From NCBI GenBank assembly GCA_019828595.1, contig JAHQRK010000001.1, positions 682,001 through 746,000 of the forward strand: a DNA stretch of 64,000 nucleotides. Reading direction: 5' to 3'. This DNA comes from Aphanomyces cochlioides. Its lineage: Eukaryota; Oomycota; Saprolegniomycetes; Saprolegniales; Verrucalvaceae. The notes beneath the pieces were generated by a model. That model was given only the letters and a program-made list of their open reading frames with translations, did no database searches and was not told the DNA's origin. The position numbers and the translations under genes are program-made. Below, one piece after another: positions 36,196 to 57,785 of the stretch (position 1 is its first letter; the number at the start of each line of letters is the position of its first letter).

Positions 36196-36199
36196 GACC

Positions 36200-36279
36200 G
36201 TCAGCTGTGAGATTCGAACTCACGCGGGTTGCCCCATTAACTTAGCAGGCTAACGCCTTAACCACTCGGCCAAGCTGAC
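36200..36279 (-). tRNA. tRNA-Ser (anticodon GCT)
   Basis: The 80-nt minus-strand sequence folds as a class II tRNA. The acceptor arms GTCAGCT/AGCTGAC pair fully. The D arm is GCC-GAGTGGTTAA-GGC, the anticodon loop CTGCTAA carries GCT at 36246-36244 (reads AGC/AGT Ser codons), the long variable arm has GGG-CAA-CCC, and the T arm is GTGAG-TTCGAAT-CTCAC. A and B box promoters are intact. The LINE array begins one base beyond its 5' end, yet the gene itself is whole. Confidence 0.95.
36265..36279. repeat. LINE target site within tRNA-Ser (first copy of the 15-bp repeat)
   Basis: CTCGGCCAAGCTGAC, the complement of tRNA nucleotides 1-15, sits at the left border of the array. It recurs at 38045, 44626, 51189 and 57771. 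Confidence 0.85.
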
Positions 36280-36280
36280 T

Positions 36281-38044
36281 TCACTGATCCTTGGCCTTGT
36301 TTGGCACGATACTGCCGTAACTCCAATCCCAGCGGGCATGATCGAGACTTGGCAACGGATGTTAAACAACTACATCGCTGGAGGCAAGACTGCCATCGAC
36401 CTTAAGTATCGCCTCCCCATCAACGGTAGTTGGATGTATGATAAAGTCCTGGGGCTTGGAATCCCCCACATAGCTTCAATCATCCGTGGGCAGCGATTCA
36501 GGCTCCTCCAAAGACTTCTGGCTGGGCCGACCATTGCGCCTCGACCGCTGTGGTTTTCACTCGTGCTTGAACAATTCGCCAATTGCACACGAACAGTCTA
36601 TCGCCCTTCCCAGCCATTTGACTTCCTGTGGTACAGGCCACAGATTAGCTCAGCGTGGCTGGACCTTCCCGAGCTCCACCCAATGTGGCTGGACGTCTGG
36701 CAAGCCTGGTCTAAAGTCCCAATGAAGCATCGCCTTCCGATACGTCCAGATTTGCCCATGACCCTGCACATGCCTATCTGGCTCACCACGTATCACGACT
36801 TCTTACTCCACGGCAAGACCACTGCTGCATCGATTATATCCCGATCTACAGAAGCCCGCTTGTGGTGTCAAGCGGGAGCACGAAACGGTCTCACATGCCT
36901 CAGTGCTTTCTTGAACAAAACCACTCCACAAGGCTACTGGCCCACCTTCCAACAATTTCAGGGACTCATGTCCTCAGGCAACCCGGCATGCACAGTCTCC
37001 TTTCAAAATGGCCGAATTTGGTTTCATCCCGTGCACCGCACACGCAGCGTGTACGACCACCTGACGCAAGTCTACCTTTCTACCTGTACCCGCTTCCAAG
37101 TCCGCCATGATGCCCCTCAGATCATTCCATCGTCTCCACCTCTTCCCTTTCGAGCACTTGTGCGCGACCAACAACAGCCCTACCCAATGTGGCCGAGGAA
37201 ACTCATCGCCAAAATAGCACACCATGGTCCCACCCCAACGGATCCACACCCGACTTACAACTCGAGTCGCCCTGACCATGATACGGCTAGGAAATACATG
37301 TCCCTTGTGCGCAAATCCCTACGATGGGTTACCCCAGTTCACGCCGATGTATGGTTCCGAGCTACAATGAACATGCTCCCAGTCAACGAACGCTATAAAT
37401 ACCTCCTATCAACTGACCCCGAGCGTGTGCTGTGCCCCCACGAATGTGATAGTCGAGAAACACTTGCCCATGCTCTGCATACTTGTCCGTCGATTGCTCC
37501 ACTGTGGACTGCCCACGAAGGGCCGTGGCAACAGTTTGGCGTATCATTCTCTTGGACCAACATCGCTAATCTTGACCGCTTCAAGGTCAACGCTCTGGGA
37601 AGACTTACCAAGGACACACTCTTTCAACTCTGGGTCATGCTCGTAGGAGTTTCACTCCATACGGCTTGGACCCAGCGCAACAATCGGAAACACCGCCGCC
37701 GAGCAGCGCCTCCACCGCACGTCCTCGTCGAGCAATCCTTCCTTCTGTGGATGGGCACCGTTCGCTGGTGGATGCGACGACAGGATGCCGACGACCCGGT
37801 CATTGATCAAACTCGAACAGTCCTCGAGAAACTCTTCTCCCAGACTCCATATTCCGAACTTCGAAGCAAATATCCAAAATGTTTGGCACTCGAAACTACG
37901 TTCGATGTGCATTAGCCACCCCTCCCCCAACCACTGGCTCCCAAGCTCCAGTGATGAAACCGCTGCCAGCGCTCTGGCACAAGGACAGGATTGAGCTTCG
38001 GCAAGATTAGCTTAGACTAACATCTAACGCGCATCCTTTGACTT
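36281..38044 (+). mobile_element. LINE copy 1, 5'-truncated, adjoining tRNA-Ser
   Basis: These 1,764 bp match the 3' part of copy A (42863-44625) nearly base for base and of copy C, including the 3' untranslated tail ending CATCCTTTGACTT. One extra T (36280) separates it from the tRNA end. It is flanked by the 15-bp target duplication (36265-36279 and 38045-38059). Loss of the 5' part with the 3' end kept is the usual outcome of incomplete target-primed reverse transcription. Confidence 0.9.
36338..37915 (+). pseudogene. LINE copy 1: C-terminal fragment of ORF2
   Basis: An open frame of 525 residues equal to the last third of ORF2, downstream of the reverse transcriptase core. It includes the C-terminal zinc-knuckle-like pattern CPHEC...H....C (near 37434-37490) and ends ETTFDVH. 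It keeps the T that copy A has lost, so its frame is open to the natural stop. It lacks the endonuclease and reverse transcriptase domains and cannot be autonomous. Confidence 0.85.
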
Positions 38045-38059
38045 CTCGGCCAAGCTGAC
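38045..38059. repeat. 15-bp tRNA-derived junction between LINE copies 1 and A
   Basis: Exact copy of CTCGGCCAAGCTGAC, immediately after the LINE 3' end (CCTTTGACTT) and immediately before the next LINE 5' end (AGTCCTCAAC). Confidence 0.85.
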
Positions 38060-38106
38060 AGTCCTCAACTTGCCAGATACTGAACACAACATTCACTCTT
38101 GCCACG

Positions 38107-40344
38107 ATGACTAACCCTGCTAACAACGCGTACACCCCACCTGCTCCCGCTCTTCAGGCCGACCAGCCTGCTGAGGATGCGCCTCCTCATGAGGAGTCTA
38201 ACTTGACCGACGACGACGACGTTGAACCGCCGCCGGAAGCTGTTTCCTTCGATGAGCGCCGCCGCCGCGCATCTGATCGCAAATCCTCCTCTCACCCAAC
38301 AGCAAATGTGTGGCAACACTTCGCCAAGCAACGCCAGGCCGCCGCCAAAGCGGCTAAGCTTGACATCGGCTATCATCGACCAACGATGGAACAGCTTGCA
38401 CCCGTCCTTCTTCTCGCGGAAGACCCTTCCGCGACTGGACGTCAACTCTTTGAGGGGTTCGAAGCCACCCTCCCATCACCCCCCCGTCCGGTCGTCACGT
38501 ACATGCAAATGGATGTCGGCCACCTTGCCAACCAGATCGATGAAGGCAAGGCCATGCGTGCTGTCCTTCACGATCACCACAATGAAGGCATCGATGAGGG
38601 ACTGACGGATATCGTCCAACTCACCGTGGACATTAACAGTCGCCAGCTCGTTTGGGGACTGGCCTCTCTGACTGCTGCCGCCATACTCGAGAACAAAGTC
38701 TTCAAAATCCCCACAAGAGACGGATTCCAATCATTCACCATGAAAGCCAAAAATGCCATGGATGGATTCTTCATAGACATTCTAGGCTTCACTGTTGACC
38801 GTGAGGCCAAGGCACACCTGTGGGAAATCCTACGCGCCGCCGGAGCTACTCCCATCTCCGGCATTTACACCAACACCTCTGAGTCCTTCGGAACCATTGG
38901 CAGTCGTTACCGGCTGACGCTGAAATCCAGCGACCCGCCAGCGCTGTTTAAATCGAATGGCCGATTGATCGACGAGATCATTTTTCTCGGCAAATGCTAT
39001 CGAGTCTTCGGACGAGACTGGTTTAACCACCGCAAGCAAACCCAACGAGCTGACCTGGATATCTTGGCCCGTGAAAAGAAAATCCCCTTGCCTGGATCCC
39101 AGACGTCTCCAAGCAATACCAGTGCACGCACCACTCAAAACGGTAAACGACAACGAAGTGACCAGGATTCCGAATCCCCGTGGGAACTGGTCACCAAAGG
39201 GGCCACCCTTGGCTCATCTGCCACACCACTCCCTTGGACTTCTCCAAACATGTACCAAGCGCTGGACGATCGAGTTGTTGTCTCCACAAAACTCGTGGCA
39301 AACAAGACTGGATCCGACATCATGGTCTTGCCAGCGATCCTAGAGCGCCCTGACGCTCCACTCTCTGTCCCACAAGACGCGTATGTCAGTGGCACCAAAG
39401 TCCACCGCAACAAAGCTGTCCGCGTGAAGACGTCGTTAAACACGACGCTCGACGAGTTGGCTGCCTTAGATGCTGCTGTCGCAGAAGCTCAGGCAGCTTT
39501 CGAGTCCAACTGCTCGACTGCTGCGTCCAAAACCAAACTAAATCTGGCTCAATACATCGAAGTCGGTGAAGCTGACTGGATCCAGCAGGATCTAGAAGAC
39601 CACCCCATCGTCTTTCGCCGTCAACTCAACGAGATGGCCCACTCCTCGCCCCAATTACTGCAGCCACTGGTCCAACTCCGACTCCTCAACAGGTGGCTAC
39701 GGGCTTCCCAGGGTGCAGCAACACCTTTTCCTAAGCTTTACACCGATACATTTGGTCACCGCTTCTCCCTGACCAACCTCACCGCCGACTTCGAGACTTT
39801 AGTCGCATCATCTCAGCTTGAACAATCTGTATGCTCCATGCACGAGGATACCAATCAGATCACGCCAGTTGAAGTCGAAACGATCCTTGCCCTCACCGAG
39901 ATGATACTTGGATCCACAGCGCCACTGATCTACTCGAGCGATACTGCTATATACTCACTCACGGCTCAACCTGTCTTCTCCATCCCCTCACGCTCGCGCT
40001 CCAGATACCTTGCGTCAGCTACCGTACGACACATCCTATGGGGATCGCCGACGCTAGGAACCACTCTGTGGGATGCGCTGAAAGCTATTATAACTGCAGC
40101 ACACGCAGCTACTAAATCACCAACGACGCATGACGAACAAAGCTCCAACCATCCCTTAGACGTAGTCAGGCAGACCCTCAACCGATGGGCTGTCATCATG
40201 AACACTATGGAGATAGCTGAAGAGCTCGAAGCTCTGAACGTCGAGTTTGAGAATCAAGTCATGCTTGAAAACTCCACGCGCCGTCTCGTCCAGGGCGACC
40301 TCACAGACCTCTGGACTGACTTCACAATATCTGCGAGTGGTTAA
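38107..40344 (+). CDS. LINE copy A ORF1 (nucleic-acid-binding candidate)
   Basis: A 745-residue open frame beginning 47 nt into the element. The N-terminus is acidic/proline-rich, followed by a basic patch (FDERRRRASDRKSSS). The rest has no domain that I recognise and no CCHC zinc knuckle. By position it should be the RNA-binding partner of ORF2, which is an inference. It is essentially identical to ORF1 of copy C and about two-thirds to three-quarters similar by eye to those of copies B and D. Confidence 0.8.
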   Translation: MTNPANNAYTPPAPALQADQPAEDAPPHEESNLTDDDDVEPPPEAVSFDERRRRASDRKSSSHPTANVWQHFAKQRQAAAKAAKLDIGYHRPTMEQLAPVLLLAEDPSATGRQLFEGFEATLPSPPRPVVTYMQMDVGHLANQIDEGKAMRAVLHDHHNEGIDEGLTDIVQLTVDINSRQLVWGLASLTAAAILENKVFKIPTRDGFQSFTMKAKNAMDGFFIDILGFTVDREAKAHLWEILRAAGATPISGIYTNTSESFGTIGSRYRLTLKSSDPPALFKSNGRLIDEIIFLGKCYRVFGRDWFNHRKQTQRADLDILAREKKIPLPGSQTSPSNTSARTTQNGKRQRSDQDSESPWELVTKGATLGSSATPLPWTSPNMYQALDDRVVVSTKLVANKTGSDIMVLPAILERPDAPLSVPQDAYVSGTKVHRNKAVRVKTSLNTTLDELAALDAAVAEAQAAFESNCSTAASKTKLNLAQYIEVGEADWIQQDLEDHPIVFRRQLNEMAHSSPQLLQPLVQLRLLNRWLRASQGAATPFPKLYTDTFGHRFSLTNLTADFETLVASSQLEQSVCSMHEDTNQITPVEVETILALTEMILGSTAPLIYSSDTAIYSLTAQPVFSIPSRSRSRYLASATVRHILWGSPTLGTTLWDALKAIITAAHAATKSPTTHDEQSSNHPLDVVRQTLNRWAVIMNTMEIAEELEALNVEFENQVMLENSTRRLVQGDLTDLWTDFTISASG

Positions 40345-43300
40345 TCCTGTCTCATCTTCCACCCAACTTGGAGGCGCGGCCAGCGTCTCATTCACCACCT
40401 GCAACCTCAACGGATTTAAAGATCACGACGACACCCCCGCATTAGCTCTCGGCAAGCACCTCCACCAATGTGTGTTCTTCCAAGAAACCAAAATCAACAA
40501 TCAAGACCATTTCCGCACCATCCGCCGACACCTGACAAATCACGTTGGCTACAAGAAGTACCAGTTATTCGTGAATGATCAGAGAACGTCCGTCCACAGT
40601 TCCACGACGCGTCGGAACAAGGGCGTAGCGACCTTCTTTCACGAGTCCATGCCAGGATTCCACAATCTCAAACCGCTCTACGACAAACGAGTGCCCAATC
40701 GGTACCTAGTCGTTCGAACGATGTGGACCTCAACACCCGTATTCTTTCACAACGTCTACGCACCCGTCGAAGATGACCAACGCGCTGCCTTCTTTGCATC
40801 TCTCCCAACGGACTTCGATGACGATGACCAGGGCATCCACATCATCGGTGGAGACTTCAATCTACCACTAAACACAGCCCTCGATGCCACCACGCCGTCT
40901 GCCAACTACAATAACGGAAAAGCCGAATGTCTCGCCTGGTTGGCAGCACTACGCGTCACTGACGCATATCGGCTTAAGTACCCCTCGACACGAGCGTTTT
41001 CCGGTCCCGGCCGCAGAAATCGACTGGATTACATCTTCGTTGACTGGGGACTAGCGACCCACCACCTGCACAACTCGGTCTACGAAGCTAACCGATACCG
41101 TGGGGACCATTTAACACACACGACAACCCTAGCAACGGTGATACCAACCACACCTTCAAAAAAGCAACCCTCCACCTGGCGGCTCCCACGGGAGCTTCTC
41201 CTCAATCCACATACAGTAAAAGCTATCAAAGGCGAGGCCCAAAGCCTCCTCGACGAGCTCCTCGAGGACACAGAGTGCAATGCGGGGGCTAAGTGGCTTG
41301 GCTGGCTTCGCCGAATGAAGCGTAAGATGAAGCAAGGCCATTTCAATCGTCAACGCCACCGTCAGAAGCTCCTGACAATGCTTCGTCGATGCGTGGTCAA
41401 AGCGAAATCGGACCTGCGCGCTGGTCTCGTCGAGCCAGCGGCTGTCCAAACGGCGCGCGATAGATATACTGATGCAAAAGCTGAACACCTCCAATCATCT
41501 CTAGACCGTGGATTTGACCGTCATGCGACTCTCAACGAATCAGCTACGGCGCATTTCCTGCGTAAACCACCTGCGCTAAAGGTACCTATCACCTCAGCGA
41601 TGAAAAACGGCGTGATCACCACAAATCCGGATGAAGTTGCTAGCATCTTCACAACACACTGGCGGTCCATAATGGTGAAGCCCGCAACAAACCCCTCGCC
41701 CGATCCTGCTCTACAGGAGACTGTCATCAACCACGTCACAGCTTCATTGTCGACGGATCAGCGCAGAGCCCTTGACAGACCAATTATTGCCTCTGAACTG
41801 TGCTCAGCAATCGAGACAATGCGCAGAAACAAGTCGCCTGGCCTGGACGGCTGGCCGGCGGCCTTCTTCCAAGTAGCTCCCGAGACCTTCGCGGCCATTC
41901 TCTGCATAGTTTTCGAGTACCAACGTAAGCACCATGGCTGTCTCCTACCACATCAGCGCAAAAGTTCAATCACCTTGCTATACAAGAAAGGAGAGCGCAC
42001 TGATCCCGGAAACTATCGACCGATTGCTCTCATGCCAGTGGAAGTCAAAATACTTTCGCGTGTGTTAGCTTATCGACTGTCGGCAGTAGCGGACACGCTT
42101 ATTCACCCGTCCCAAGCAGGTTTTGTGAAGGGCCGCAATATAACCGACCACATTCATTTGATTCAAGCCCTCCAACACAAGGCCACCCGCAATAATGAGG
42201 AATGGTACGCTACATTCCTCGACTTTGCGAAGGCCTATGACATGGTCCGCTGGCCATTCCTCTTTGCAGTGATGTCAAAAATGAACATCGGTCCTGAGTT
42301 TTTGGGCTGGGTCCGCTTGCTGTACAGGAACCCAGAAGTCCACTTGTTGCTCAATGGCGCACCTGGTCCCACCATTCGATCCAACCGCGGAGTCAAACAA
42401 GGCTGTCCTCTGTCCTGTCTTCTTTTCGACCTGTATCTAGAGCCACTTGGCGCCATGCTCCGCGCTCGCCCCGAAGCCGGCATCCAAATCGATGACGACA
42501 CTTGCCTTACTAGCGTGTTCTTCGCTGACGACTCCACCATACTATCGGGATCGCTTGAGTCGGCTGAATACCAAGTGGACGAGATCGTCGGCAAGTTTTG
42601 CGCGGTCTCTGGAGCTGCGTTAAACCGATCTAAGTGCATCACACTAGCCCTCAACAATAATGAAGAGCCGACTGGACGAGCCTCGGCACCGTCCATCACA
42701 CTAGCAGCGTCAGGCCAGCCGATTCGCTTCCTCAGCGCCTACATTGGCCACCGTCTGCCACCCAACTACCATGCGCAGCAAATAAACGACAAATACCTCG
42801 CAGCCTTTGCCCAATGGCACAGCCGCGCGAGAACAATTCAAGGCCGTCGAACACTAGCCTCGTCACTGATCCTTGGCCTTGTTTGGCACGATACTGCCGT
42901 AACTCCAATCCCAGCGGGCATGATCGAGACTTGGCAACGGATGTTAAACAACTACATCGCTGGAGGCAAGACTGCCATCGACCTTAAGTATCGCCTCCCC
43001 ATCAACGGTAGTTGGATGTATGATAAAGTCCTGGGGCTTGGAATCCCCCACATAGCTTCAATCATCCGTGGGCAGCGATTCAGGCTCCTCCAAAGACTTC
43101 TGGCTGGGCCGACCATTGCGCCTCGACCGCTGTGGTTTTCACTCGTGCTTGAACAATTCGCCAATTGCACACGAACAGTCTATCGCCCTTCCCAGCCATT
43201 TGACTTCCTGTGGTACAGGCCACAGATTAGCTCAGCGTGGCTGGACCTTCCCGAGCTCCACCCAATGTGGCTGGACGTCTGGCAAGCCTGGTCTAAAGTC

Positions 43301-44496
43301 CCAATGAAGCATCGCCTTCCGATACGTCCAGATTTGCCCATGACCCTGCACATGCCTATCTGGCTCACCACGTATCACGACTTCTTACTCCACGGCAAGA
43401 CCACTGCTGCATCGATTATATCCCGATCTACAGAAGCCCGCTTGTGGTGTCAAGCGGGAGCACGAAACGGTCTCACATGCCTCAGTGCTTTCTTGAACAA
43501 AACCACTCCACAAGGCTACTGGCCCACCTTCCAACAATTTCAGGGACTCATGTCCTCAGGCAACCCGGCATGCACAGTCTCCTTTCAAAATGGCCGAATT
43601 TGGTTTCATCCCGTGCACCGCACACGCAGCGTGTACGACCACCTGACGCAAGTCTACCTTTCTACCTGTACCCGCTTCCAAGTCCGCCATGATGCCCCTC
43701 AGATCATTCCATCGTCTCCACCTCTTCCCTTTCGAGCACTTGTGCGCGACCAACAACAGCCCTACCCAATGTGGCCGAGGAAACTCATCGCCAAAATAGC
43801 ACACCATGGTCCCACCCCAACGGATCCACACCCGACTTACAACTCGAGTCGCCCTGACCATGATACGGCTAGGAAATACATGTCCCTTGTGCGCAAATCC
43901 CTACGATGGGTTACCCCAGTTCACGCCGATGTATGGTTCCGAGCTACAATGAACATGCTCCCAGTCAACGAACGCTATAAATACCTCCTATCAACTGACC
44001 CCGAGCGTGTGCTGTGCCCCCACGAATGGATAGTCGAGAAACACTTGCCCATGCTCTGCATACTTGTCCGTCGATTGCTCCACTGTGGACTGCCCACGAA
44101 GGGCCGTGGCAACAGTTTGGCGTATCATTCTCTTGGACCAACATCGCTAATCTTGACCGCTTCAAGGTCAACGCTCTGGGAAGACTTACCAAGGACACAC
44201 TCTTTCAACTCTGGGTCATGCTCGTAGGAGTTTCACTCCATACGGCTTGGACCCAGCGCAACAATCGGAAACACCGCCGCCGAGCAGCGCCTCCACCGCA
44301 CGTCCTCGTCGAGCAATCCTTCCTTCTGTGGATGGGCACCGTTCGCTGGTGGATGCGACGACAGGATGCCGACGACCCGGTCATTGATCAAACTCGAACA
44401 GTCCTCGAGAAACTCTTCTCCCAGACTCCATATTCCGAACTTCGAAGCAAATATCCAAAATGTTTGGCACTCGAAACTACGTTCGATGTGCATTAG
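40343..44496 (+). pseudogene. LINE copy A ORF2, single-base frameshift near 44028
   Basis: The ORF2 frame lies +1 relative to ORF1 and overlaps its end. An APE-type endonuclease comes first (TTCNLNGF, FFQETKI, NVYAP, GGDFNLP, RNRLDYIFVD, GDHLTHT). The reverse transcriptase follows (LLYKKGERTDPGNYRPIALM, FLDFAKAYDMVRW, GVKQGCPLSCLLF, and the catalytic FADD at 42521-42532). A missing T near 44028, compared with copies 1 and C, shifts the frame inside the C-terminal zinc motif and ends translation at 44227; the original frame resumes as an open stretch up to 44496. The polymerase core is intact but the C-terminal domain is lost. Confidence 0.88.
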
Positions 44497-44625
44497 CCAC
44501 CCCTCCCCCAACCACTGGCTCCCAAGCTCCAGTGATGAAACCGCTGCCTGCGCTCTAGCACAAGGACAGGATTGAGCTTCGGCAAGATTAGCTTAGACTA
44601 ACATCTAACGCGCATCCTTTGACTT

Positions 44626-44640
44626 CTCGGCCAACCTGAC
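44626..44640. repeat. 15-bp tRNA-derived junction between LINE copies A and B (one variant base)
   Basis: CTCGGCCAACCTGAC, one base from the tRNA sequence. The same variant is found after copy C at 57771. Confidence 0.8.
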
Positions 44641-44687
44641 AGTCCTCAACTTTCCAGACACTAACCACGACAAACATTCTGACCACG

Positions 44688-46909: not shown

Positions 46910-46916
46910 ACCTGCT

Positions 46917-49900
46917 ATGGGCCCACCATCGCTCGGCGGCGCAGCCAGCGTCAGAGTTACCACCTGCAACCTAAACGGCTTCAAAGACCGGGATGACACC
47001 CCGGCATCCACACTTGGCAAATATATCACGCAATGCGTCTTCTTTCAGGAGACGAGAATCAACAATCAAGACCACTTCCACATCATTCGACACCACATCA
47101 CCAACCACGTCGGTCACAAGAAATACAAGTTCTTTGTGAACGACCACAGAACGTCCATCCACGCCCCATCCGCTCGTAGGAGCAAAGGCGTCGCGACTTA
47201 CTTCCATGAGTCCATGCCAGGATTCGAACACCTCAAGCCACTGTGGGACAAAAGAGTGCCCGACAGATATATCTTGTTATCAAGACAATGTGGGACGCCA
47301 CCCCAGTATACTTCCATAACGTTTACGCCCCAGTCGAGGACGACCAACGAGCCGCCTTCTTCGAGGCGCTTCCCGTCGACTTTGGTGATAACGACTCAGG
47401 CGTCCATATCGTTGGTGGGGACTTCAACCTCCCCGTCAACTCCATGTAACTCGACGCAACAACTCCTCCTGCAAACCACAATGCCGGTAAGGCAGAATGC
47501 ATGGCTTGGCTTGCTGCCCTCCGAGTCACCGACGCTTGGAGACTTATTCACCCCTCGACACGGAAGTTCTCGGGTCCTAGACGACGGAATCGACTTGACT
47601 ACATCTACGTCGACAATAACTTAGCGACGTACTACCTCCAAAGCTCGCTGTATGAAACCAATCAATATCACGGCGACCACTTATGCCACACAACGATCCT
47701 CGCGACAACACCATCAGCTCAACAGAAACAAAAAGCTATCTGGCGTTTACCACGCGAGCTACTTCACGACCCACGAACGGTCAAAGCTATCCAATCCGAA
47801 GCCCAGATGCTACTCGACGAGCTCCGTTCCGACCCAGCGTGCCAGCGTGCACCGCAGGTGCTAAATGGACGGGGTGGCTTCGGCGAATGAAACGCAAACT
47901 TCGTCAAGGCCAATTTAACAGGCTCCGCCATCGCAAGGAAGCTCTTACCCTTCTCCGACGATGTGTGGCCAAAGCCAAATCTGATCTCAAAGCTGGACTT
48001 ATCCAGGAAGAAGCTATAAGTGCAGCTCGAGACATCTATAAATCAGCCAAAGCCGAACAAAGCCAGGCGAATCTCGATAGCGGCTTTGACCGTCACGCTA
48101 ACCGCAACGAATCGCCGACAGCTTACTTCCTCCGTAAGCCGCCGGCTATCAAAATCCCCATCACCTCAGCCTTAATGAACGGCGCCACTACAACAAACCC
48201 CGAGGAAGTCGCCGCTATTTTCACAGCACACTGGCGCTCGATCATGGTCGCATCGACCGACACGCCTCCGCCCAATGATGCGCAGATGTCTAGTGTCATC
48301 AATCACGTTGACAGCGAGCTTAGTCCTGAACAACGCAATGATCTGGATCGCCCGATTGATACGTCCGAACTGCGGGACGCCATCAAATCCATGCGTAAAA
48401 ACAAGTCGCCTGGCCCCGACGGGTGGCCAGCGGTGTTCTTTCAAACTGCTCCGGAAACATTTGCAGCTATCCTCAGCATCGTCTTCGAATACCAACGCAA
48501 GCAACACGGCTGCTTGCTGGCTCACCAGCGCAAGAGTTCAATCACACTGCTCTACAAAGAGGGCGACCGAACCGACCCAGGCAACTATCGCCCGATCGCG
48601 CTTATGCCGGTCGAAGTCAAAATACTGTCTCGAGTCCTCGCCTACCGTCTGTCGGCGGTAGCCTCAACTCTGATTCATCCCTCACAAGCTGGGTTCGTAA
48701 AAGGCCGTAGTATGGCCGACCACATCCATCTCATAGACGCGCTCCAACATAAAGCCACCAGAGACAACGAGGAATGGTATGCAACGTTCCTCGACTTCGC
48801 CAAGGCCTACGATATGGTGCGGTGGTCTTTTCTCTTTGCTGTGATGGAGAAGATGAACATCGGACCTGACTTCCTCAGCTGGGTCCATCTGCTGTATAAA
48901 AAACCCCAAGCTCATCTCCTCATCAATGGCGCACTCGGTCCTGCGATTAAACGAACACGGGGAGTCAAGCAAGGATGCCCATTGTCGTGCCTACTCTTCG
49001 ACCTTTACCTGGAGCCACTTGGAGCGATGCTCCGTGCACACCCGGAAGCCGGCATCCAACTGAAGGATGGTAGAACCCTCACTGGAGTGTTTTTTGCCGA
49101 TGATTCCACACTCCTCTCTAGCTCGCTCGAGTCGGCTGAATTTCAAACCGACGCGATTGTGGGTCAATTTTGCGCGGCGTCAGGGGCGGCTCTGAACCGC
49201 TCCAAATGCATCACTCTAGCTCTCAACAACAACGAAGAGCCGACCGGACGACTATCGGCTCCATCAATTATACTGTCTGCGTCTGGACACCCAATTCGAT
49301 TCCTCGGAGCCTATGTTGGCCATCGCCTTGACCCGCATTACCAAGCCCAACGAATACATGACAAATACCTGGCTGCATATGCGCAGTGGCATTGCCGAGC
49401 GCGCACGCTGCAGGGTCGTCGAGCCTTGGCTTCCTCCATGATCCTTGGCCTGATATGGCATGTGACAGCTGTCACACCCATTCCCGGAAGCTTCATCGAC
49501 GTGTGGCAGCGACTTCTGTCGAACTTCGTGGTCGGCGGCAAAACTACAATAGACCCGCAATACCGTCGCCCTATCCGACAGGACTGGCTACATGACAAGA
49601 CTCTCGGTCTCGGCATCCCCCACATCTCATCGATCATTAGAGGCCAACGTCTAAAGCTTCTCCAGCGCCTCATTACAGAGTCGCATTCCGCGGCACCAGC
49701 GGCATGGTCCTCCCTTGTTCTGGAGCAATTTGCACTTTGCACCCACACAACTTATCGACCATCTCATCCTCTCGACTTCTTGTGGTACTCGCCACAAAAG
49801 AGTTCATCTTGGCTTGACCTCCGGGAGCTCCACCCGCTGTGAATCGATGTATGGACAACATGGTCCAAAGTACAACTGAAAGACCGCATACAGATCCATC

Positions 49901-51069
49901 CCGACTTCGACACCACTTTACAAATGCCTCTCTGGCTAACCTACTATCCGGAATTCCTCAAAGATGGGAAGGTGACGCCTGCGTCGATCGTCTCCAGATC
50001 GACTACAACCCGCATGTGGTGCCAATCAGGAGTCTCAAACGGATTCTGGTGCCTGAAGGACTTCCTTGACCAAGCGACCCCCCGTGGCCAATGGCCCGAC
50101 TTCAAGCAATTCCAAGGGCTTATGTCTTCAGACAACCCCTCTTGCACAGTATCACTCCAGAACGGTGAAATATGGTTTTCTCTCGTCCACCGTACTCGCG
50201 ATCTGTACGACCACCTTACCACCGTCTATCACTCGGTTTGCGCTCGCTGCAACATGCAGAACACTAACAGCGAACGAGCCAACCACCACTCCCACCACGC
50301 CTTCCAAGCTATGGTCCGGCAACATAAAAGACCACTAGAGCTCTGGCCTCGCAAGCTCATCGCAAAGATATCCTACCATGGACCACAACTGGCGGTACGA
50401 CACCCGACGTATTCTGTTGAACGCCCAAACTTGGCGACATCCCGTCGGTATATGGCGACGGTGCGCAAATCCCTGCGATGGATCACACCCGTTCATGCTG
50501 ATGTGTGGCTCAGAGTGATTATGTGCATGCTGCCTGTCAACGAACGCTATCACTACTGCTCGTCCACTGAGCCTGAGCGAATACTATGCCCACAAGAATG
50601 CGGCGAGCAAGAATCCATTGCGCATGCACTCCGCGAGTGCCCAAAGATTGCACCGTTATGGTCAGCGCATGAATCCCCGTGGCAACAATTCAACGTAAAG
50701 TTCGCCTGGACCAGCATCATCAACATGGACAACTTCACCACAAACTCCATTGGACGACCATACAAAGACGCTCTCTTTCATCTCTGGGTTGCGCTGACAG
50801 GTGTCACCCTCCACCTGGCATGGACCCAAAGAAACCACAAGAAACACCGCCGGAGGGCCGCACCACCACACCACGTCCTCACAGAACAGTCCTTTCTTGT
50901 GTGGATGTCTACAGTACGATGGTGGATGAGACGCCAAGCTCTTGACGATCCCATCGTGTCCAATACCAAACTCGCGCTTGACCAGTTACTCTCCAAACCA
51001 CCGTACTCCGAACTTCGACGAAAGCACCCACGGTGCCTCGATATCCACCCAACCTTTGATGTGCACTAG
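46917..51069 (+). pseudogene. LINE copy B ORF2, multiple breaks
   Basis: Unlike copies A and C, this ORF2 has its own ATG at 46917, seven bases after the ORF1 stop. The endonuclease region changes frame near 47260 and meets an in-frame TAA after GGDFNLPVNSM (about 47447). Another shift occurs near 47850, and a TGA at 49840 replaces a Trp codon. The reverse transcriptase core (FADD near 49097-49108) is still readable. Not functional. Confidence 0.88.
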
Positions 51070-51188
51070 ACGTCAGGAGCGCAATAGGCGCTCCAAACCA
51101 CAACCTTCAAGTGCTCCGACACATGGAGCGGATTGAGCTTCGGCGATATTAGCATTAGATTTAACTCTAATGCGGAATCCTTTGACTT

Positions 51189-51203
51189 CTCGGCCAAGCT
51201 GAC
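51189..51203. repeat. 15-bp tRNA-derived junction between LINE copies B and C
   Basis: Exact CTCGGCCAAGCTGAC between the 3' end of copy B and the 5' end of copy C. Confidence 0.85.
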
Positions 51204-51250
51204 AGTCCTCAACTTGCCAGATACTGAACACAACATTCACTCTTGCCACG

Positions 51251-53488
51251 ATGACTAACCCTGCTAACAACGCGTACACCCCACCTGCTCCCGCTCTTCA
51301 GGCCGACCAGCCTGCTGAGGATGCGCCTCCTCATGAGGAGTCTAACTTGACCGACGACGACGACGTTGAACCGCCGCCGGAAGCTGTTTCCTTCGATGAG
51401 CGCCGCCGCCGCGCATCTGATCGCAAATCCTCCTCTCACCCAACAGCGAATGTGTGGCAACACTTCGCCAAGCAACGCCAGGCCGCCGCCAAAGCGGCTA
51501 AGCTTGACATCGGCTATCATCGACCAACGATGGAACAGCTTGCACCCATCCTTCTTCTCGCGGAAGACCCTTCCGCGACTGGACGTCAACTCTTTGAGGG
51601 GTTCGAAGCCACCCTCCCATCACCCCCCCGTCCGGTCGTCACGTACATGCAAATGGATGTCGGCCACCTTGCCAACCAGATCGATGAAGGCAAGGCCATG
51701 CGTGCTGTCCTTCACGATCACCACAATGAAGGCATCGATGAGGGACTGACGGATATCGTCCAACTCACCGTGGACATTAACAGTCGCCAGCTCGTTTGGG
51801 GACTGGCCTCTCTGACTGCTGCCGCCATACTCGAGAACAAAGTCTTCAAAATCCCCACAAGAGACGGATTCCAATCATTCACCATGAAAGCCAAAAATGC
51901 CATGGATGGATTCTTCATAGACATTCTAGGCTTCACTGTTGACCGTGAGGCCAAGGCACACCTGTGGGAAATCCTACGCGCCGCCGGAGCTACTCCCATC
52001 TCCGGCATTTACACCAACACCTCTGAGTCCTTCGGAACCATTGGCAGTCGTTACCGGCTGACGCTGAAATCCAGCGACCCGCCAGCGCTGTTTAAATCGA
52101 ATGGCCGATTGATCGACGAGATCATTTTTCTCGGCAAATGCTATCGAGTCTTCGGACGAGACTGGTTTAACCACCGCAAGCAAACCCAACGAGCTGACCT
52201 GGATATCTTGGCCCGTGAAAAGAAAATCCCCTTGCCTGGATCCCAGACGTCTCCAAGCAATACCAGTGCACGCACCACTCAAAACGGTAAACGACAACGA
52301 AGTGACCAGGATTCCGAATCCCCGTGGGAACTGGTCACCAAAGGGGCCACCCTTGGCTCATCTGCCACACCACTCCCTTGGACTTCTCCAAACATGTACC
52401 AAGCGCTGGACGATCGAGTTGTTGTCTCCACAAAACTCGTGGCAAACAAGACTGGATCCGACATCATGGTCTTGCCAGCGATCCTAGAGCGCCCTGACGC
52501 TCCACTCTCTGTCCCACAAGACGCGTATGTCAGTGGCACCAAAGTCCACCGCAACAAAGCTGTCCGCGTGAAGACGTCGTTAAACACGACGCTCGACGAG
52601 TTGGCTGCCTTAGATGCTGCTGTCGCAGAAGCTCAGGCAGCTTTCGAGTCCAACTGCTCGACTGCTGCGTCCAAAACCAAACTAAATCTGGCTCAATACA
52701 TCGAAGTCGGTGAAGCTGACTGGATCCAGCAGGATCTAGAAGACCACCCCATCGTCTTTCGCCGTCAACTCAACGAGATGGCCCACTCCTCGCCCCAATT
52801 ACTGCAGCCACTGGTCCAACTCCGACTCCTCAACAGGTGGCTACGGGCTTCCCAGGGTGCAGCAACACCTTTTCCTAAGCTTTACACCGATACATTTGGT
52901 CACCGCTTCTCCCTGACCAACCTCACCGCCGACTTCGAGACTTTAGTCGCATCATCTCAGCTTGAACAATCTGTATGCTCCATGCACGAGGATACCAATC
53001 AGATCACGCCAGTTGAAGTCGAAACGATCCTTGCCCTCACCGAGATGATACTTGGATCCACAGCGCCACTGATCTACTCGAGCGATACTGCTATATACTC
53101 ACTCACGGCTCAACCTGTCTTCTCCATCCCCTCACGCTCGCGCTCCAGATACCTTGCGTCAGCTACCGTACGACACATCCTATGGGGATCGCCGACGCTA
53201 GGAACCACTCTGTGGGATGCGCTGAAAGCTATTATAACTGCAGCACACGCAGCTACTAAATCACCAACGACGCATGACGAACAAAGCTCCAACCATCCCT
53301 TAGACGTAGTCAGGCAGACCCTCAACCGATGGGCTGTCATCATGAACACTATGGAGATAGCTGAAGAGCTCGAAGCTCTGAACGTCGAGTTTGAGAATCA
53401 AGTCATGCTTGAAAACTCCACGCGCCGTCTCGTCCAGGGCGACCTCACAGACCTCTGGACTGACTTCACAATATCTGCGAGTGGTTAA
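51251..53488 (+). CDS. LINE copy C ORF1
   Basis: A 745-residue open frame with one residue change that I noticed against copy A (APILLL for APVLLL). It starts 47 nt after the junction 15-mer. There is no CCHC motif and no family I recognise; the basic N-terminal patch and the position before the endonuclease/reverse transcriptase ORF suggest an RNA-binding role in the retrotransposition particle. Confidence 0.82.
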   Translation: MTNPANNAYTPPAPALQADQPAEDAPPHEESNLTDDDDVEPPPEAVSFDERRRRASDRKSSSHPTANVWQHFAKQRQAAAKAAKLDIGYHRPTMEQLAPILLLAEDPSATGRQLFEGFEATLPSPPRPVVTYMQMDVGHLANQIDEGKAMRAVLHDHHNEGIDEGLTDIVQLTVDINSRQLVWGLASLTAAAILENKVFKIPTRDGFQSFTMKAKNAMDGFFIDILGFTVDREAKAHLWEILRAAGATPISGIYTNTSESFGTIGSRYRLTLKSSDPPALFKSNGRLIDEIIFLGKCYRVFGRDWFNHRKQTQRADLDILAREKKIPLPGSQTSPSNTSARTTQNGKRQRSDQDSESPWELVTKGATLGSSATPLPWTSPNMYQALDDRVVVSTKLVANKTGSDIMVLPAILERPDAPLSVPQDAYVSGTKVHRNKAVRVKTSLNTTLDELAALDAAVAEAQAAFESNCSTAASKTKLNLAQYIEVGEADWIQQDLEDHPIVFRRQLNEMAHSSPQLLQPLVQLRLLNRWLRASQGAATPFPKLYTDTFGHRFSLTNLTADFETLVASSQLEQSVCSMHEDTNQITPVEVETILALTEMILGSTAPLIYSSDTAIYSLTAQPVFSIPSRSRSRYLASATVRHILWGSPTLGTTLWDALKAIITAAHAATKSPTTHDEQSSNHPLDVVRQTLNRWAVIMNTMEIAEELEALNVEFENQVMLENSTRRLVQGDLTDLWTDFTISASG

Positions 53489-56400
53489 TCCTGTCTCATC
53501 TTCCACCCAACTTGGAGGCGCGGCCAGCGTCTCATTCACCACCTGCAACCTCAACGGATTTAAAGATCACGACGACACCCCCGCATTAGCTCTCGGCAAG
53601 CACCTCCACCAATGTGTGTTCTTCCAAGAAACCAAAATCAACAATCAAGACCATTTCCGCACCATCCGCCGACACCTGACAAATCACGTTGGCTACAAGA
53701 AGTACCAGTTATTCGTGAATGATCAGAGAACGTCCGCCCACAGTTCCACGACGCGTCGGAACAAGGGCGTAGCGACCTTCTTTCACGAGTCCATGCCAGG
53801 ATTCCACAATCTCAAACCGCTCTACGACAAACGAGTGCCCAATCGGTACCTAGTCGTTCGAACGATGTGGACCTCAACACCCGTATTCTTTCACAACGTC
53901 TACGCACCCGTCGAAGATGACCAACGCGCTGCCTTCTTTGCATCTCTCCCAACGGACTTCGATGACGATGACCAGGGCATCCACATCATCGGTGGAGACT
54001 TCAATCTACCACTAAACACAGCCCTCGATGCCACCACGCCGTCTGCCAACTACAATAACGGAAAAGCCGAATGTCTCGCCTGGTTGGCAGCACTACGCGT
54101 CACTGACGCATATCGGCTTAAGTACCCCTCGACACGAGCGTTTTCCGGTCCCGGCCGCAGAAATCGACTGGATTACATCTTCGTTGACTGGGGACTAGCG
54201 ACCCACCACCTGCACAACTCGGTCTACGAAGCTAACCGATACCGTGGGGACCATTTAACACACACGACAACCCTAGCAACGGTGATACCAACCACACCTT
54301 CAAAAAAGCAACCCTCCACCTGGCGGCTCCCACGGGAGCTTCTCCTCAATCCACATACAGTAAAAGCTATCAAAGGCGAGGCCCAAAGCCTCCTCGACGA
54401 GCTCCTCGAGGACACAGAGTGCAATGCGGGGGCTAAGTGGCTTGGCTGGCTTCGCCGAATGAAGCGTAAGATGAAGCAAGGCCATTTCAATCGTCAACGC
54501 CACCGTCAGAAGCTCCTGACAATGCTTCGTCGATGCGTGGTCAAAGCGAAATCGGACCTGCGCGCTGGTCTCGTCGAGCCAGCGGCTGTCCAAACGGCGC
54601 GCGATAGATATACTGATGCAAAAGCTGAACACCTCCAATCATCTCTAGACCGTGGATTTGACCGTCATGCGACTCTCAACGAATCAGCTACGGCGCATTT
54701 CCTGCGTAAACCACCTGCGCTAAAGGTACCTATCACCTCAGCGATGAAAAACGGCGTGATCACCACAAATCCGGATGAAGTTGCTAGCATCTTCACAACA
54801 CACTGGCGGTCCATAATGGTGAAGCCCGCAACAAACCCCTCGCCCGATCCTGCTCTACAGGAGACTGTCATCAACCACGTCACAGCTTCATTGTCGACGG
54901 ATCAGCGCAGAGCCCATGACAGACCAATTATTGCCTCTGAACTGTGCTCAGCAATCGAGACAATGCGCAGAAACAAGTCGCCTGGCCTGGACGGCTGGCC
55001 GGCGGCCTTCTTCCAAGTAGCTCCCGAGACCTTCGCGGCCATTCTCTGCATAGTTTTCGAGTACCAACGTAAGCACCATGGCTGTCTCCTACCACATCAG
55101 CGCAAAAGTTCAATCACCTTGCTATACAAGAAAGGAGAGCGCACTGATCCCGGAAACTATCGACCGATTGCTCTCATGCCAGTGGAAGTCAAAATACTTT
55201 CGCGTGTGTTAGCTTATCGACTGTCGGCAGTAGCGGACACGCTTATTCACCCGTCCCAAGCAGGTTTTGTGAAGGGCCGCAATATAACCGACCACATTCA
55301 TTTGATTCAAGCCCTCCAACACAAGGCCACCCGCAATAATGAGGAATGGTACGCTACATTCCTCGACTTTGCGAAGGCCTATGACATGGTCCGCTGGCCA
55401 TTCCTCTTTGCAGTGATGTCAAAAATGAACATCGGTCCTGAGTTTTTGGGCTGGGTCCGCTTGCTGTACAGGAACCCAGAAGTCCACTTGTTGCTCAATG
55501 GCGCACCTGGTCCCACCATTCGATCCAACCGCGGAGTCAAACAAGGCTGTCCTCTGTCCTGTCTTCTTTTCGACCTGTATCTAGAGCCACTTGGCGCCAT
55601 GCTTTGCGCTCGCCCCGAAGCTGGCATCCAAATCGATGACGACACTTGCCTTACTAGCGTGTTCTTCGCTGACGACTCCACCACACTATCGGGATCGCTT
55701 GAGTCGGCTGAATACCAAGTGGACGAGATCGTCGGCAAGTTTTGCGCGGTCTCTGGAGCTGCGTTAAACCGATCTAAGTGCATCACACTAGCCCACAACA
55801 ATAATGAAGAGCCGACTGGACGAGCCTCGGCACCGTCCATCACACTAGCAGCGTCAGGCCAGCCGATTCGCTTCCTCGGCGCCTACATTGGCCACCGTCT
55901 GCCACCCAACTACCATGCGCAGCAAATAAACGACAAATACCTCGCAGCCTTTGCCCAATGGCACAGCCGCGCGAGAACAATTCAAGGCCGTCGAACACTA
56001 GCCTCGTCACTGATCCTTGGCCTTGTTTGGCACGATACTGCCGTAACTCCAATCCCAGCGGGCATGATCGAGACTTGGCAACGGATGTTAAACAACTACA
56101 TCGCTGGAGGCAAGACTGCCATCGACCTTAAGTATCGCCTCCCCATCAACGGTAGTTGGATGTATGATAAAGTCCTGGGGCTTGGAATCCCCCACATAGC
56201 TTCAATCATCCGTGGGCAGCGATTCAGGCTCCTCCAAAGACTTCTGGCTGGGCCGACCATTGCGCCTCGACCGCTGTGGTTTTCACTCGTGCTTGAACAA
56301 TTCGCCAATTGCACACGAACAGTCTATCGCCCTTCCCAGCCATTTGACTTCCTGTGGTACAGGCCACAGATTAGCTCAGCGTGGCTGGACCTTCCCGAGC

Positions 56401-57641
56401 TCCACCCAATGTGGCTGGACGTCTGGCAAGCCTGGTCTAAAGTCCCAATGAAGCATCGCCTTCCGATACGTCCAGATTTGCCCATGACCCTGCACATGCC
56501 TATCTGGCTCACCACGTATCACGACTTCTTACTCCACGGCAAGACCACTGCTGCATCGATTATATCCCGATCTACAGAAGCCCGCTTGTGGTGTCAAGCG
56601 GGAGCACGAAACGGTCTCACATGCCTCAGTGCTTTCTTGAACAAAACCACTCCACAAGGCTACTGGCCCACCTTCCAACAATTTCAGGGACTCATGTCCT
56701 CAGGCAACCCGGCATGCACAGTCTCCTTTCAAAATGGCCGAATTTGGTTTCATCCCGTGCACCGCACACGCAGCGTGTACGACCACCTGACGCAAGTCTA
56801 CCTTTCTACCTGTACCCGCTTCCAAGTCCGCCATGATGCCCCTCAGATCATTCCATCGTCTCCACCTCTTCCCTTTCGAGCACTTGTGCGCGACCAACAA
56901 CAGCCCTACCCAATGTGGCCGAGGAAACTCATCGCCAAAATAGCACACCATGGTCCCACCCCAACGGATCCACACCCGACTTACAACTCGAGTCGCCCTG
57001 ACCATGATACGGCTAGGAAATACATGTCCCTTGTGCGCAAATCCCTACGATGGGTTACCCCAGTTCACGCCGATGTATGGTTCCGAGCTACAATGAACAT
57101 GCTCCCAGTCAACGAACGCTATAAATACCTCCTATCAACTGACCCCGAGCGTGTGCTGTGCCCCCACGAATGTGATAGTCGAGAAACACTTGCCCATGCT
57201 CTGCATACTTGTCCGTCGATTGCTCCACTGTGGACTGCCCACGAAGGGCCGTGGCAACAGTTTGGCGTATCATTCTCTTGGACCAACATCGCTAATCTTG
57301 ACCGCTTCAAGGTCAACGCTCTGGGAAGACTTACCAAGGACACACTCTTTCAACTCTGGGTCATGCTCGTAGGAGTTTCACTCCATACGGCTTGGACCCA
57401 GCGCAACAATCGGAAACACCGCCGCCGAGCAGCGCCTCCACCGCACGTCCTCGTCGAGCAATCCTTCCTTCTGTGGATGGGCACCGTTCGCTGGTGGATG
57501 CGACGACAGGATGCCGACGACCCGGTCATTGATCAAACTCGAACAGTCCTCGAGAAACTCTTCTCCCAGACTCCATATTCCGAACTTCGAAGCAAATATC
57601 CAAAATGTTTGGCACTCGAAACTACGTTCGATGTGCATTAG
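53487..57641 (+). CDS. LINE copy C ORF2: APE endonuclease and reverse transcriptase
   Basis: About 1,380 residues, open from the end of ORF1 to TTFDVH-stop. The N-terminal APE-like endonuclease has the metal and catalytic motifs CNLNG, QETK, NVYAP, GDFNLP and RLDYIFVD; the usual SDH triad is GDH here. The reverse transcriptase has LDFAKAYDM, QGCPLSCLLFD and FADD (55665-55676), then LNRSKC. The C-terminus has a zinc-binding candidate CPHECDSRETLAHALHTC. Domain order and motifs fit the L1/Tx1-like LINEs, though clade assignment needs a tree. No ATG precedes the endonuclease in this frame after the ORF1 stop, so it must be translated by reinitiation, a non-AUG start, or +1 frameshifting from ORF1. 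Confidence 0.88.
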   Translation, partial: NPVSSSTQLGGAASVSFTTCNLNGFKDHDDTPALALGKHLHQCVFFQETKINNQDHFRTIRRHLTNHVGYKKYQLFVNDQRTSAHSSTTRRNKGVATFFHESMPGFHNLKPLYDKRVPNRYLVVRTMWTSTPVFFHNVYAPVEDDQRAAFFASLPTDFDDDDQGIHIIGGDFNLPLNTALDATTPSANYNNGKAECLAWLAALRVTDAYRLKYPSTRAFSGPGRRNRLDYIFVDWGLATHHLHNSVYEANRYRGDHLTHTTTLATVIPTTPSKKQPSTWRLPRELLLNPHTVKAIKGEAQSLLDELLEDTECNAGAKWLGWLRRMKRKMKQGHFNRQRHRQKLLTMLRRCVVKAKSDLRAGLVEPAAVQTARDRYTDAKAEHLQSSLDRGFDRHATLNESATAHFLRKPPALKVPITSAMKNGVITTNPDEVASIFTTHWRSIMVKPATNPSPDPALQETVINHVTASLSTDQRRAHDRPIIASELCSAIETMRRNKSPGLDGWPAAFFQVAPETFAAILCIVFEYQRKHHGCLLPHQRKSSITLLYKKGERTDPGNYRPIALMPVEVKILSRVLAYRLSAVADTLIHPSQAGFVKGRNITDHIHLIQALQHKATRNNEEWYATFLDFAKAYDMVRWPFLFAVMSKMNIGPEFLGWVRLLYRNPEVHLLLNGAPGPTIRSNRGVKQGCPLSCLLFDLYLEPLGAMLCARPEAGIQIDDDTCLTSVFFADDSTTLSGSLESAEYQVDEIVGKFCAVSGAALNRSKCITLAHNNNEEPTGRASAPSITLAASGQPIRFLGAYIGHRLPPNYHAQQINDKYLAAFAQWHSRARTIQGRRTLASSLILGLVWHDTAVTPIPAGMIETWQRMLNNYIAGGKTAIDLKYRLPINGSWMYDKVLGLGIPHIASIIRGQRFRLLQRLLAGPTIAPRPLWFSLVLEQFANCTRTVYRPSQPFDFLWYRPQISSAWLDLPELHPMWLDVWQAWSKVPMKHRLPIRPDLPMTLHMPIWLTTYHDFLLHGKTTAASIISRSTEARLWCQAGARNGLTCLSAFLNKTTPQGYWPTFQQFQGLMSSGNPACTVSFQNGRIWFHPVHRTRSVYDHLTQVYLSTCTRFQVRHDAPQIIPSSPPLPFRALVRDQQQPYPMWPRKLIAKIAHHGPTPTDPHPTYNSSRPDHDTARKYMSLVRKSLRWVTPVHADVWFRATMNMLPVNERYKYLLSTDPERVLCPHECDSRETLAHALHTCPSIAPLWTAHEGPWQQFGVSFSWTNIANLDRFKVNALGRLTKDTLFQLWVMLVGVSLHTAWTQRNNRKHRRRAAPPPHVLVEQSFLLWMGTVRWWMRRQDADDPVIDQTRTVLEKLFSQTPYSELRSKYPKCLALETTFDVH

Positions 57642-57770
57642 CCACCCCTCCCCCAACCACTGGCTCCCAAGCTCCAGTGATGAAACCGCTGCCTGCGCTC
57701 TAGCACAAGGACAGGATTGAGCTTCGGCAAGATTAGCTTAGACTAACATCTAACGCGCATCCTTTGACTT

Positions 57771-57785
57771 CTCGGCCAACCTGAC
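57771..57785. repeat. 15-bp tRNA-derived junction between LINE copies C and D (one variant base)
   Basis: CTCGGCCAACCTGAC, the same variant as at 44626. Confidence 0.8.

Follow-up and report, generated by a model that had tools for sequence, protein, structure and literature searches.

The locus described here raises the question of why the beginning of a tRNA gene should recur between retrotransposons that lie beside that gene. The window, that is, the whole stretch of 64,000 nucleotides analysed from the oomycete Aphanomyces cochlioides (GCA_019828595.1, contig JAHQRK010000001.1, positions 682,001 to 746,000 of the forward strand), contains a single tRNA gene, tRNA-Ser(GCT) at 36199-36279 on the minus strand (ARAGORN). 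It is followed by one 5'-truncated, three complete and one cut long interspersed nuclear element (LINE), all oriented away from the tRNA and kept apart by copies of tRNA nucleotides 1-15. An earlier note on this DNA had proposed that one LINE family inserts sequence-specifically at the 5' end of tRNA-Ser, with a 15-bp target duplication, and builds a head-to-tail array. Our searches of the genome (76.2 Mb in 94 contigs, designated C1 and so forth; the window lies on C1) point to a broader rule, by which two families of L1-type LINEs very probably insert at a fixed place of tRNA genes by target-primed reverse transcription. The array is composed as follows.

36199..36279, minus strand: tRNA-Ser(GCT) target gene, complete (ARAGORN; Rfam tRNA, 61.2 bits)
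36265..36279, plus strand: tRNA nucleotides 1-15 in antisense, left copy of the target-site duplication (exact match)
36280..38044, plus strand: E1, 5'-truncated LINE of subfamily A (99.8-99.9% identical to the 3' parts of E2 and E4)
38045..38059, plus strand: copy of the target-site duplication (15-mer match)
38060..44625, plus strand: E2, full-length LINE of subfamily A, 6566 bp (BLAST between units, open reading frames (ORFs))
44626..44640, plus strand: copy of the target-site duplication, one mismatch, the same variant as at 57771 (15-mer match)
44641..51188, plus strand: E3, full-length LINE of subfamily B, 6548 bp (BLAST between units, ORFs)
51189..51203, plus strand: copy of the target-site duplication (15-mer match)
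51204..57770, plus strand: E4, full-length LINE of subfamily A, 6567 bp (BLAST between units, ORFs)
51251..53488, plus strand: ORF1 of E4, 745 amino acids, no Pfam match at E<=0.01
53391..57641, plus strand: ORF2 of E4, apurinic-type endonuclease (PF03372) and reverse transcriptase (PF00078), from ORF and Pfam
57771..57785, plus strand: copy of the target-site duplication, one mismatch (15-mer match)
57786..59190, plus strand: E5, 5' part of a subfamily C LINE, end approximate (similarity to E3 as far as about 59163; ORF to 59191)

The 15-mer CTCGGCCAAGCTGAC, tRNA nucleotides 1-15 in antisense, starts at 36265, 38045, 44626, 51189 and 57771, with one mismatch at 44626 and at 57771. The match search thus confirmed the description of this sequence at the left border and at four LINE-LINE junctions, exact or with one change. 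No further copy was found in the window at up to two mismatches, and chance matches in dinucleotide shuffles of the window had a mean of 0.09 and a maximum of 1. Reading of all four inner junctions gave the order that had been described, namely the LINE 3' end CCTTTGACTT, the 15-mer and the LINE 5' end AGTCCTC, and E1 is joined directly to tRNA nucleotide 1 with one extra base. The array has a period of about 6.57 kb (repeat scan, at least 60 bases). It is evident that the array does not consist of a single LINE family as had been supposed: E1, E2 and E4 belong to subfamily A (E2 and E4 are 99.8% identical), and subfamilies A, B (E3) and C (E5) show about 70-72% mutual identity over the stretches aligned by BLAST. 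Both ORFs are open in E4; in E2, ORF1 is open and ORF2 frameshifted; the reading frames of E3, which is 98.7% identical to a tRNA-adjacent LINE on C21, are split into several ORFs. E5 is cut by a rearrangement near 59190.

Is the 15-mer a part of the LINE or a duplicated target? Because its letters change with the local tRNA, and because empty paralogues hold one 15-mer inside the tRNA, it is, as judged from sequence comparison, a target-site duplication and not LINE sequence. The same LINE (98% identical in the 3' untranslated region (UTR)) is present at tRNA-Ser(AGA) genes on C2, whose 15-mer differs from the GCT version by one base, and there the element is followed by CTCGGCCAAGCTGTC, the AGA version, instead of the GCT letters; the case in which the 15-mer would be internal to the LINE is thereby rejected. 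The filled site L056 of C2 was read on both sides, as tRNA/AGTCCTC and as CCTTTGACTT/CTCGGCCAAGCTGTC/TTTCATGACTC (slashes mark junctions), and at the empty paralogue L029 of the same cluster the upstream DNA equals that beyond the distal copy at L056. These results support the proposal of sequence-specific insertion with duplication of the target. Its exact length of 15 bp is less firm: the duplication may be 14 bp in the Ser family, because one C is common to the tRNA and to the base after the LINE 3' end.

The tRNA-Ser(GCT) genes tell the same story. Three of the five are occupied (one on C1, two on C21) and those on C14 and C23 are empty, and the 14 exact 15-mers in the genome lie either in these five genes or at LINE borders (nine). 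In both C21 arrays the LINE starts at tRNA nucleotide 1 and the order of units is unlike that of the window: one reads tRNA-Ser(GCT), B, a 549-bp element, A and a 714-bp element, and the other tRNA-Ser(GCT), A, a 548-bp element, C and the end, where non-LINE DNA follows the 15-mer (the label C rests here on 141 bp at 93%).

Flanks of LINE copies were tabulated over the genome, as the earlier note had suggested, for the 22 matches to the LINE 3' end. The GCT or AGA 15-mer follows in 17 of them with at most one mismatch, a further one (C2:552968) retains 7 nucleotides of the 15-mer, three lie at other sites (C12, C89 and C5) and one carries none, so that copies flanked by unrelated sequence, which would have spoken against targeting, are mostly but not wholly absent. 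The 5'-site pattern of tRNA-Ser, GWCAGCTTGGCCGAGYGGTTAAGGC, matches the genome exactly at 63 places and with two mismatches at one more, and a search with just the inner A-box pattern leads to 63 places in the identical gene set. A LINE directly upstream was found at eight of the 63 sites (C1, one; C21, two; C2, five), part of the others having been read; for C2, one junction was read (L056) and the other four follow from LINE coordinates. A tandem cluster at C2:555864-644905 holds 43 of the 63 sites, including the five with a LINE. At C2:554965 and C2:557209 (L028 and L030) there are tRNA-Ser(CGA)-type genes in which 22 bp of LINE 3' end stand in place of the sequence after nucleotide 15; these 22 bp end in the shared GCGTTAGA, and an intact paralogue exists (L066, C2:644881). 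Such genes go back either to insertion of an ultra-short copy or to loss of DNA between short repeats, and seven further places in the C2 cluster were inferred to be similar from position lists.

A non-autonomous element, 548-549 bp long and in one case 714 bp, occurs on C21, C12 and C89 (L047, L049, L050, L053 and L054). It shares the 5' start motif and the last 70 bp with the LINE and obeys the same insertion rule. The copies on C12 and C89 have 16-bp duplications of their own, that on C12 lying in clear tRNA-like sequence: CTAGGCCAACTGCCAC stands on both flanks, and on the other strand of the left flank the nick coincides with a perfect A box, TGGCCTAG/TGG, accompanied by a B box that deviates in one base. 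Of 20,000 random window positions, 0.1% had both boxes with no more than one mismatch in either. On C89, CCCAACCTCCGCCTGT is found on both sides with a B box of one mismatch near it, and the best A box, with two mismatches, lies elsewhere. Rfam called neither the C12 nor the C89 flank as tRNA.

The description of tRNA-Ser as the target proved too narrow, since a second LINE family is found at Tyr, Phe, Lys, Ala and Asn tRNAs. Its ORF2, found in a search in which 33 of 1695 candidates were scored, has 48% identity to that of the Ser family in this search and 47% over 1371 aligned positions, with near-identical copies among its members; Pfam reports RVT_1 only, and the endonuclease part is visible by alignment to P0002. 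At the 3' ends of the family the LINE continues into TGAGCTA, in which the A-box half TAGCTCA is read in antisense. The 3' 18-mer has 224 places in the genome and the tail plus TGAGCTA has 221, both at up to one mismatch, and the two sets overlap but differ slightly. The duplication corresponds to tRNA nucleotides 1-14.

To read the 5' junctions of this family, 20 loci were fetched from matches to its 5' region. The junction is visible in 16 of them (L072 and L085 missed it, L067 is an empty site and L068 a 3' end): 11 lie at the tRNA gene itself (one Tyr, three Phe, two Lys, four Ala and one Asn), four between LINEs, with the tRNA-start duplication of Tyr or Asn, and one at an Asn A-box half-site. 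The LINE is separated from the tRNA start by zero to six extra bases. Ten of the 11 genes are recognised by ARAGORN, two Ala genes (L076 and L077) with abnormal lengths, and the uncalled one is a Tyr copy without B box. Further LINE-LINE junctions with Tyr letters were found at L058 and L059. In 17 of 20 3' flanks, all chosen from places already matching TGAGCTA, the letters that follow are those of a Phe, Ala, Asn or Lys acceptor stem; the flank of L105 is too short to read the whole acceptor. One Tyr insertion, a 7.3-kb insert, was read on both sides (L068 and L069), and L067 serves as the empty site for comparison with it.

With regard to the class of the elements, ORF2 of E4 carries both reverse transcriptase and endonuclease, the latter at its N-terminus (Pfam), the 3' end is fixed, 5' truncation is variable, a target site is duplicated, and the repeat scan (at least 60 bases) shows only unit-to-unit repeats in the array and no long terminal repeats; these are features of LINEs, that is, non-LTR retrotransposons. 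The closest solved relative of ORF2 is human L1 ORF2p (E 6e-53), R2 giving E 6e-23. The elements may thus be described as L1-type apurinic-endonuclease LINEs, by similarity rather than by clade membership. Aphanomyces euteiches and Aphanomyces astaci encode protein relatives of the LINE ORFs, and no related elements from viral contigs are among the close ORF2 relatives. The predicted fold of ORF1 is poor (mean predicted local distance difference test (pLDDT) 53.6), with values above 70 mainly in a C-terminal helical part at about 480-735. Rfam over 36000-60000 at E<=1 matches the tRNA alone, with no ribozyme at the LINE 5' end.

The sequence itself shows the target, the duplication, the orientation, the preservation of the tRNA, the several subfamilies, the non-autonomous partner and the same rule at other tRNA species, and we propose the following course of insertion. 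The endonuclease would first nick the sense strand of the tRNA gene within the A box, following nucleotide 14 or 15, at TGGCCGAG/YGG in the Ser family and at TAGCTCA/G in the second family, and the freed 3' end would prime cDNA synthesis from the 3' end of the LINE RNA. A second nick would fall at tRNA nucleotide 1. Fill-in of the stagger would duplicate nucleotides 1-14/15, so that the tRNA stays complete with the LINE in antisense immediately upstream of it, and the distal side would consist of a copy of the tRNA start and then the former upstream DNA. This rule, with the first nick in the A box, the second at nucleotide 1, the LINE antisense and the tRNA kept, is common to both families. 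We infer the order of the nicks from the position of the fixed LINE end; the priming, the growth of the array and the direction of the enzyme by A-box recognition, perhaps with RNA polymerase III (Pol III) factors helping, would be further parts of the same process. Nicks at the A box and at nucleotide 1 would be the simplest account of why the duplication is exact, the LINE antisense and the tRNA intact, and why the 3' end is fixed and 5' ends are truncated. A head-to-tail array would grow by repeated insertion, most simply at the site copy adjacent to the tRNA, inner junctions being possible too, and would later be reshaped by unequal exchange and gene conversion.

Several observations weigh against this account. 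E2 and E4 share the variant 15-mer and also variants of the 3' UTR, which would not be expected from repeated independent insertions alone. On C2, a single insertion that was multiplied by tandem duplication probably accounts for all five filled sites. C21:219684 is a decayed LINE 3' end without the 15-mer, the Ser-family copy at C1:978187 has a Ser duplication with no tRNA-Ser 5' site listed nearby, the 3' end on C5 is readable on one side only, and the C89 copy combines a duplication with a weak A box. In the second family, L057, one of the first four 3' ends, is disturbed, the 3' flanks of L087 and L096 fit no assignable tRNA, and most copies were read on one side only.

The tRNA-Tyr clusters bear on whether the B box takes part. 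The 19-mer CCGGTCATAGCTCAGTTGG has 97 exact matches, 96 in clusters on C13, C30, C42 and C77 and one on C7, and tRNA-Tyr(GTA) with a 35-base intron was called in 8 of 11 units tested (ARAGORN, introns allowed). L067, L069 and L112 lack 11 nucleotides that include the B box, in agreement with a unit spacing of about 1184 versus 1195; Rfam scored L069 as tRNA with 31.7 bits in one run and gave no match in another. The three units read in C13:1382803-1418545 indicate a tandem tRNA-Tyr block apparently without B box, with almost no enlarged gaps. An upstream gap that exceeds one unit was counted as an indication of insertion; such gaps occur in 2 of 25 cases in the B-box-less block versus 40 of 65 elsewhere (Fisher P 3e-6; two gaps of about 7.9 kb between blocks, and C7, were left out). 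This comparison is a hint and not a test, because the units have spread by tandem duplication, because the presence or absence of the B box was read directly in 11 units and deduced from spacing in the others, and because some of the 40 enlarged gaps, part of which were read, are too short for a full LINE.

What brings the enzyme to the site can be viewed in different ways. The endonuclease may read an extended A-box sequence without host factors, like other site-specific apurinic-type LINEs, a possibility to be taken seriously though we would rather doubt it. The nick position is identical to the nucleotide among five tRNA isotypes and in Ser varies by one base at most, the two families use different A-box letters, and the B-box-less tRNA-Tyr at L069 has a second-family LINE directly upstream, with both insert ends read. 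However, TAGCTCA is expected about 9,000 times in 76 Mb (both strands, equal base use), whereas the 5' junctions read sit at tRNA genes, tRNA-start copies and one half-site, and the acceptor letters vary freely; the scarcity of enlarged gaps in the B-box-less Tyr block also speaks against DNA sequence alone, confounded as it is by tandem duplication. The alternative that TFIIIC or TFIIIB brings the LINE to the gene, in the manner described for TRE5-A of Dictyostelium, where the endonuclease then cuts the fixed A-box site, seems to us evenly balanced between true and false. Almost every target that was read is a tRNA gene or a tRNA-like sequence, and B-box-intact Tyr units have enlarged upstream gaps far more often; yet the Tyr data are not independent, the insert at L069 stands beside a gene without B box (though the deletion may be later), and the prediction for ORF1 yields no usable fold. 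Combining both, we tentatively consider, at a little below an even chance, a LINE lineage that uses the Pol III A box as its integration rule: recruitment, possibly through B box and TFIIIC, plus a base-exact cut would open any tRNA gene with fitting A-box letters to insertion, leave the tRNA whole and keep the target for the next insertion, and families would divide the tRNA genes by A-box sequence.

The arrays themselves might have arisen without repeated targeting, if one LINE, together with its 15-mer, had been multiplied chiefly by unequal crossing-over or segmental duplication. The near identity of E2 and E4 with their common variant 15-mer fits this, as does the LINE-bearing unit of C2, which recurs near-identical at spacings made of cluster units. 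But duplication of one unit cannot give the arrays, because neighbouring units differ in subfamily and order (A, B, C and the 548-bp element, arranged differently at three tRNA-Ser(GCT) genes), and because in the second family the arrangement recurs at several tRNA isotypes; we therefore regard duplication as the main origin as quite improbable. Since E2 and E4 share the variant 15-mer, exchange or conversion within arrays probably contributed all the same, so that the proposed origin of the head-to-tail array by repeated targeted insertion is supported but incomplete. It is hardly credible, finally, that the 15-mer belongs to the LINE as a captured tRNA start and that the left-border tRNA is there by coincidence or through a capture. 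The 15-mer does stand at every unit border in the window, but its letters follow the local tRNA (AGA on C2, other isotypes in the second family) and the empty paralogues have no LINE and one 15-mer inside the tRNA, which refutes this reading.

Target-specific LINEs are already known, some of them inside tRNA genes, with restriction-like endonucleases, and some near tRNA genes (TRE, NLTR). In Dictyostelium, TRE5 inserts upstream of tRNA genes in opposite orientation, about 40-54 bp away and within a window of positions (PMC5911963, PMC5006619), and targeting of TRE5-A requires the B box (PMC5911963). NLTR-A of D. purpureum inserts 2-6 bp upstream of tRNA genes; it has an RNase H domain, and its authors were unable to assign a subfamily while a review places it under L1 (PMC5911963, PMC5006619). 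The Aphanomyces elements resemble TRE5/TRE3 and NLTR-A in the apurinic endonuclease and in tRNA association, and TRE5 also in the antisense upstream position. On the other hand, they cut inside the A box at a fixed base, duplicate nucleotides 1-14/15, were read without a poly(A) tail and are stacked head to tail. Insertion at nucleotide 1, seen in the junctions, also agrees with the earlier remark that the tRNA's own 5' nucleotides are used, unlike the distance kept by TRE elements.

NeSL-1_TV (tRNA-Pro), LIN15_SM (tRNA-Arg) and LIN25_SM (tRNA-Glu) are non-LTR elements each specific for one tRNA gene (PMC4640811). They belong to restriction-like endonuclease lineages, whereas one Aphanomyces family acts on five isotypes and E4 ORF2 has an apurinic-type endonuclease, with no restriction-like domain listed by Pfam, no search having been aimed at one. 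Utopia is a LINE specific for U2 small nuclear RNA (snRNA) in oomycetes and others, with a restriction-like endonuclease, several families per target array and, in a wasp, insertions in tandem; for Phytophthora, the U2 start is inferred by its authors to be deleted, not duplicated, though they could not settle the point (PMC4640811). It is thus similar in being a target-specific LINE of oomycetes with several families per array, and different in endonuclease and in its U2 target. Dewa is a Tx1-type element. It lies in the spacer of tRNA-Leu in zebrafish (PMC3706591) and not, like the Aphanomyces LINEs, in the tRNA gene itself; the Tx1 and R1 clades contain site-specific LINEs with apurinic endonucleases (PMC3706591, PMC4640811). 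Dada elements share fixed sites inside several tRNA genes but are DNA transposons with 6-7 bp duplications (PMC3706591). No title among the matches listed in the open-licence literature dealt with a LINE whose apurinic endonuclease cuts within tRNA genes or in the A box across several tRNAs, or with these Aphanomyces elements; no query was worded on the A box, and absence is unproven.

If the proposed insertion is correct, a LINE can land in essential genes without breaking them, the stagger being placed so that the duplication restores the tRNA. The two sets of A-box letters, together with the B-box-intact and B-box-less tRNA-Tyr series, allow the question to be asked whether targeting depends on DNA sequence, on Pol III factors or on both. 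Moreover, site-exact apurinic-endonuclease LINEs are of interest for targeted DNA insertion.

A separate idea, that the LINE 3' tail mimics tRNA-Ser nucleotides 16-45 in antisense and thereby rebuilds the target, was rejected against shuffles: P was 0.05-0.08 for subfamily A and 0.08-0.26 for the second family, and subfamily B gave 0.0015 and 0.0025 with the AGA and CGA tRNAs and 0.47 against GCT. Single-sequence folding of the tails gave z -2.5 for the second family and -1.25 to +0.28 for the other three, relative to shuffles. We read the tail hairpin as a putative RNA recognition motif, because the second family has a similar hairpin beside other tRNAs.

Apart from the LINEs, a 354-amino-acid ORF at 58885-59949 (minus strand), with no Pfam match, overlaps the cut end of E5. 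A series of cysteine-rich repeat ORFs lies at 6452-18103 on the minus strand, and a 768-amino-acid ORF at 26533-28839, also on the minus strand, resembles cobalamin-independent methionine synthase as judged by eye.

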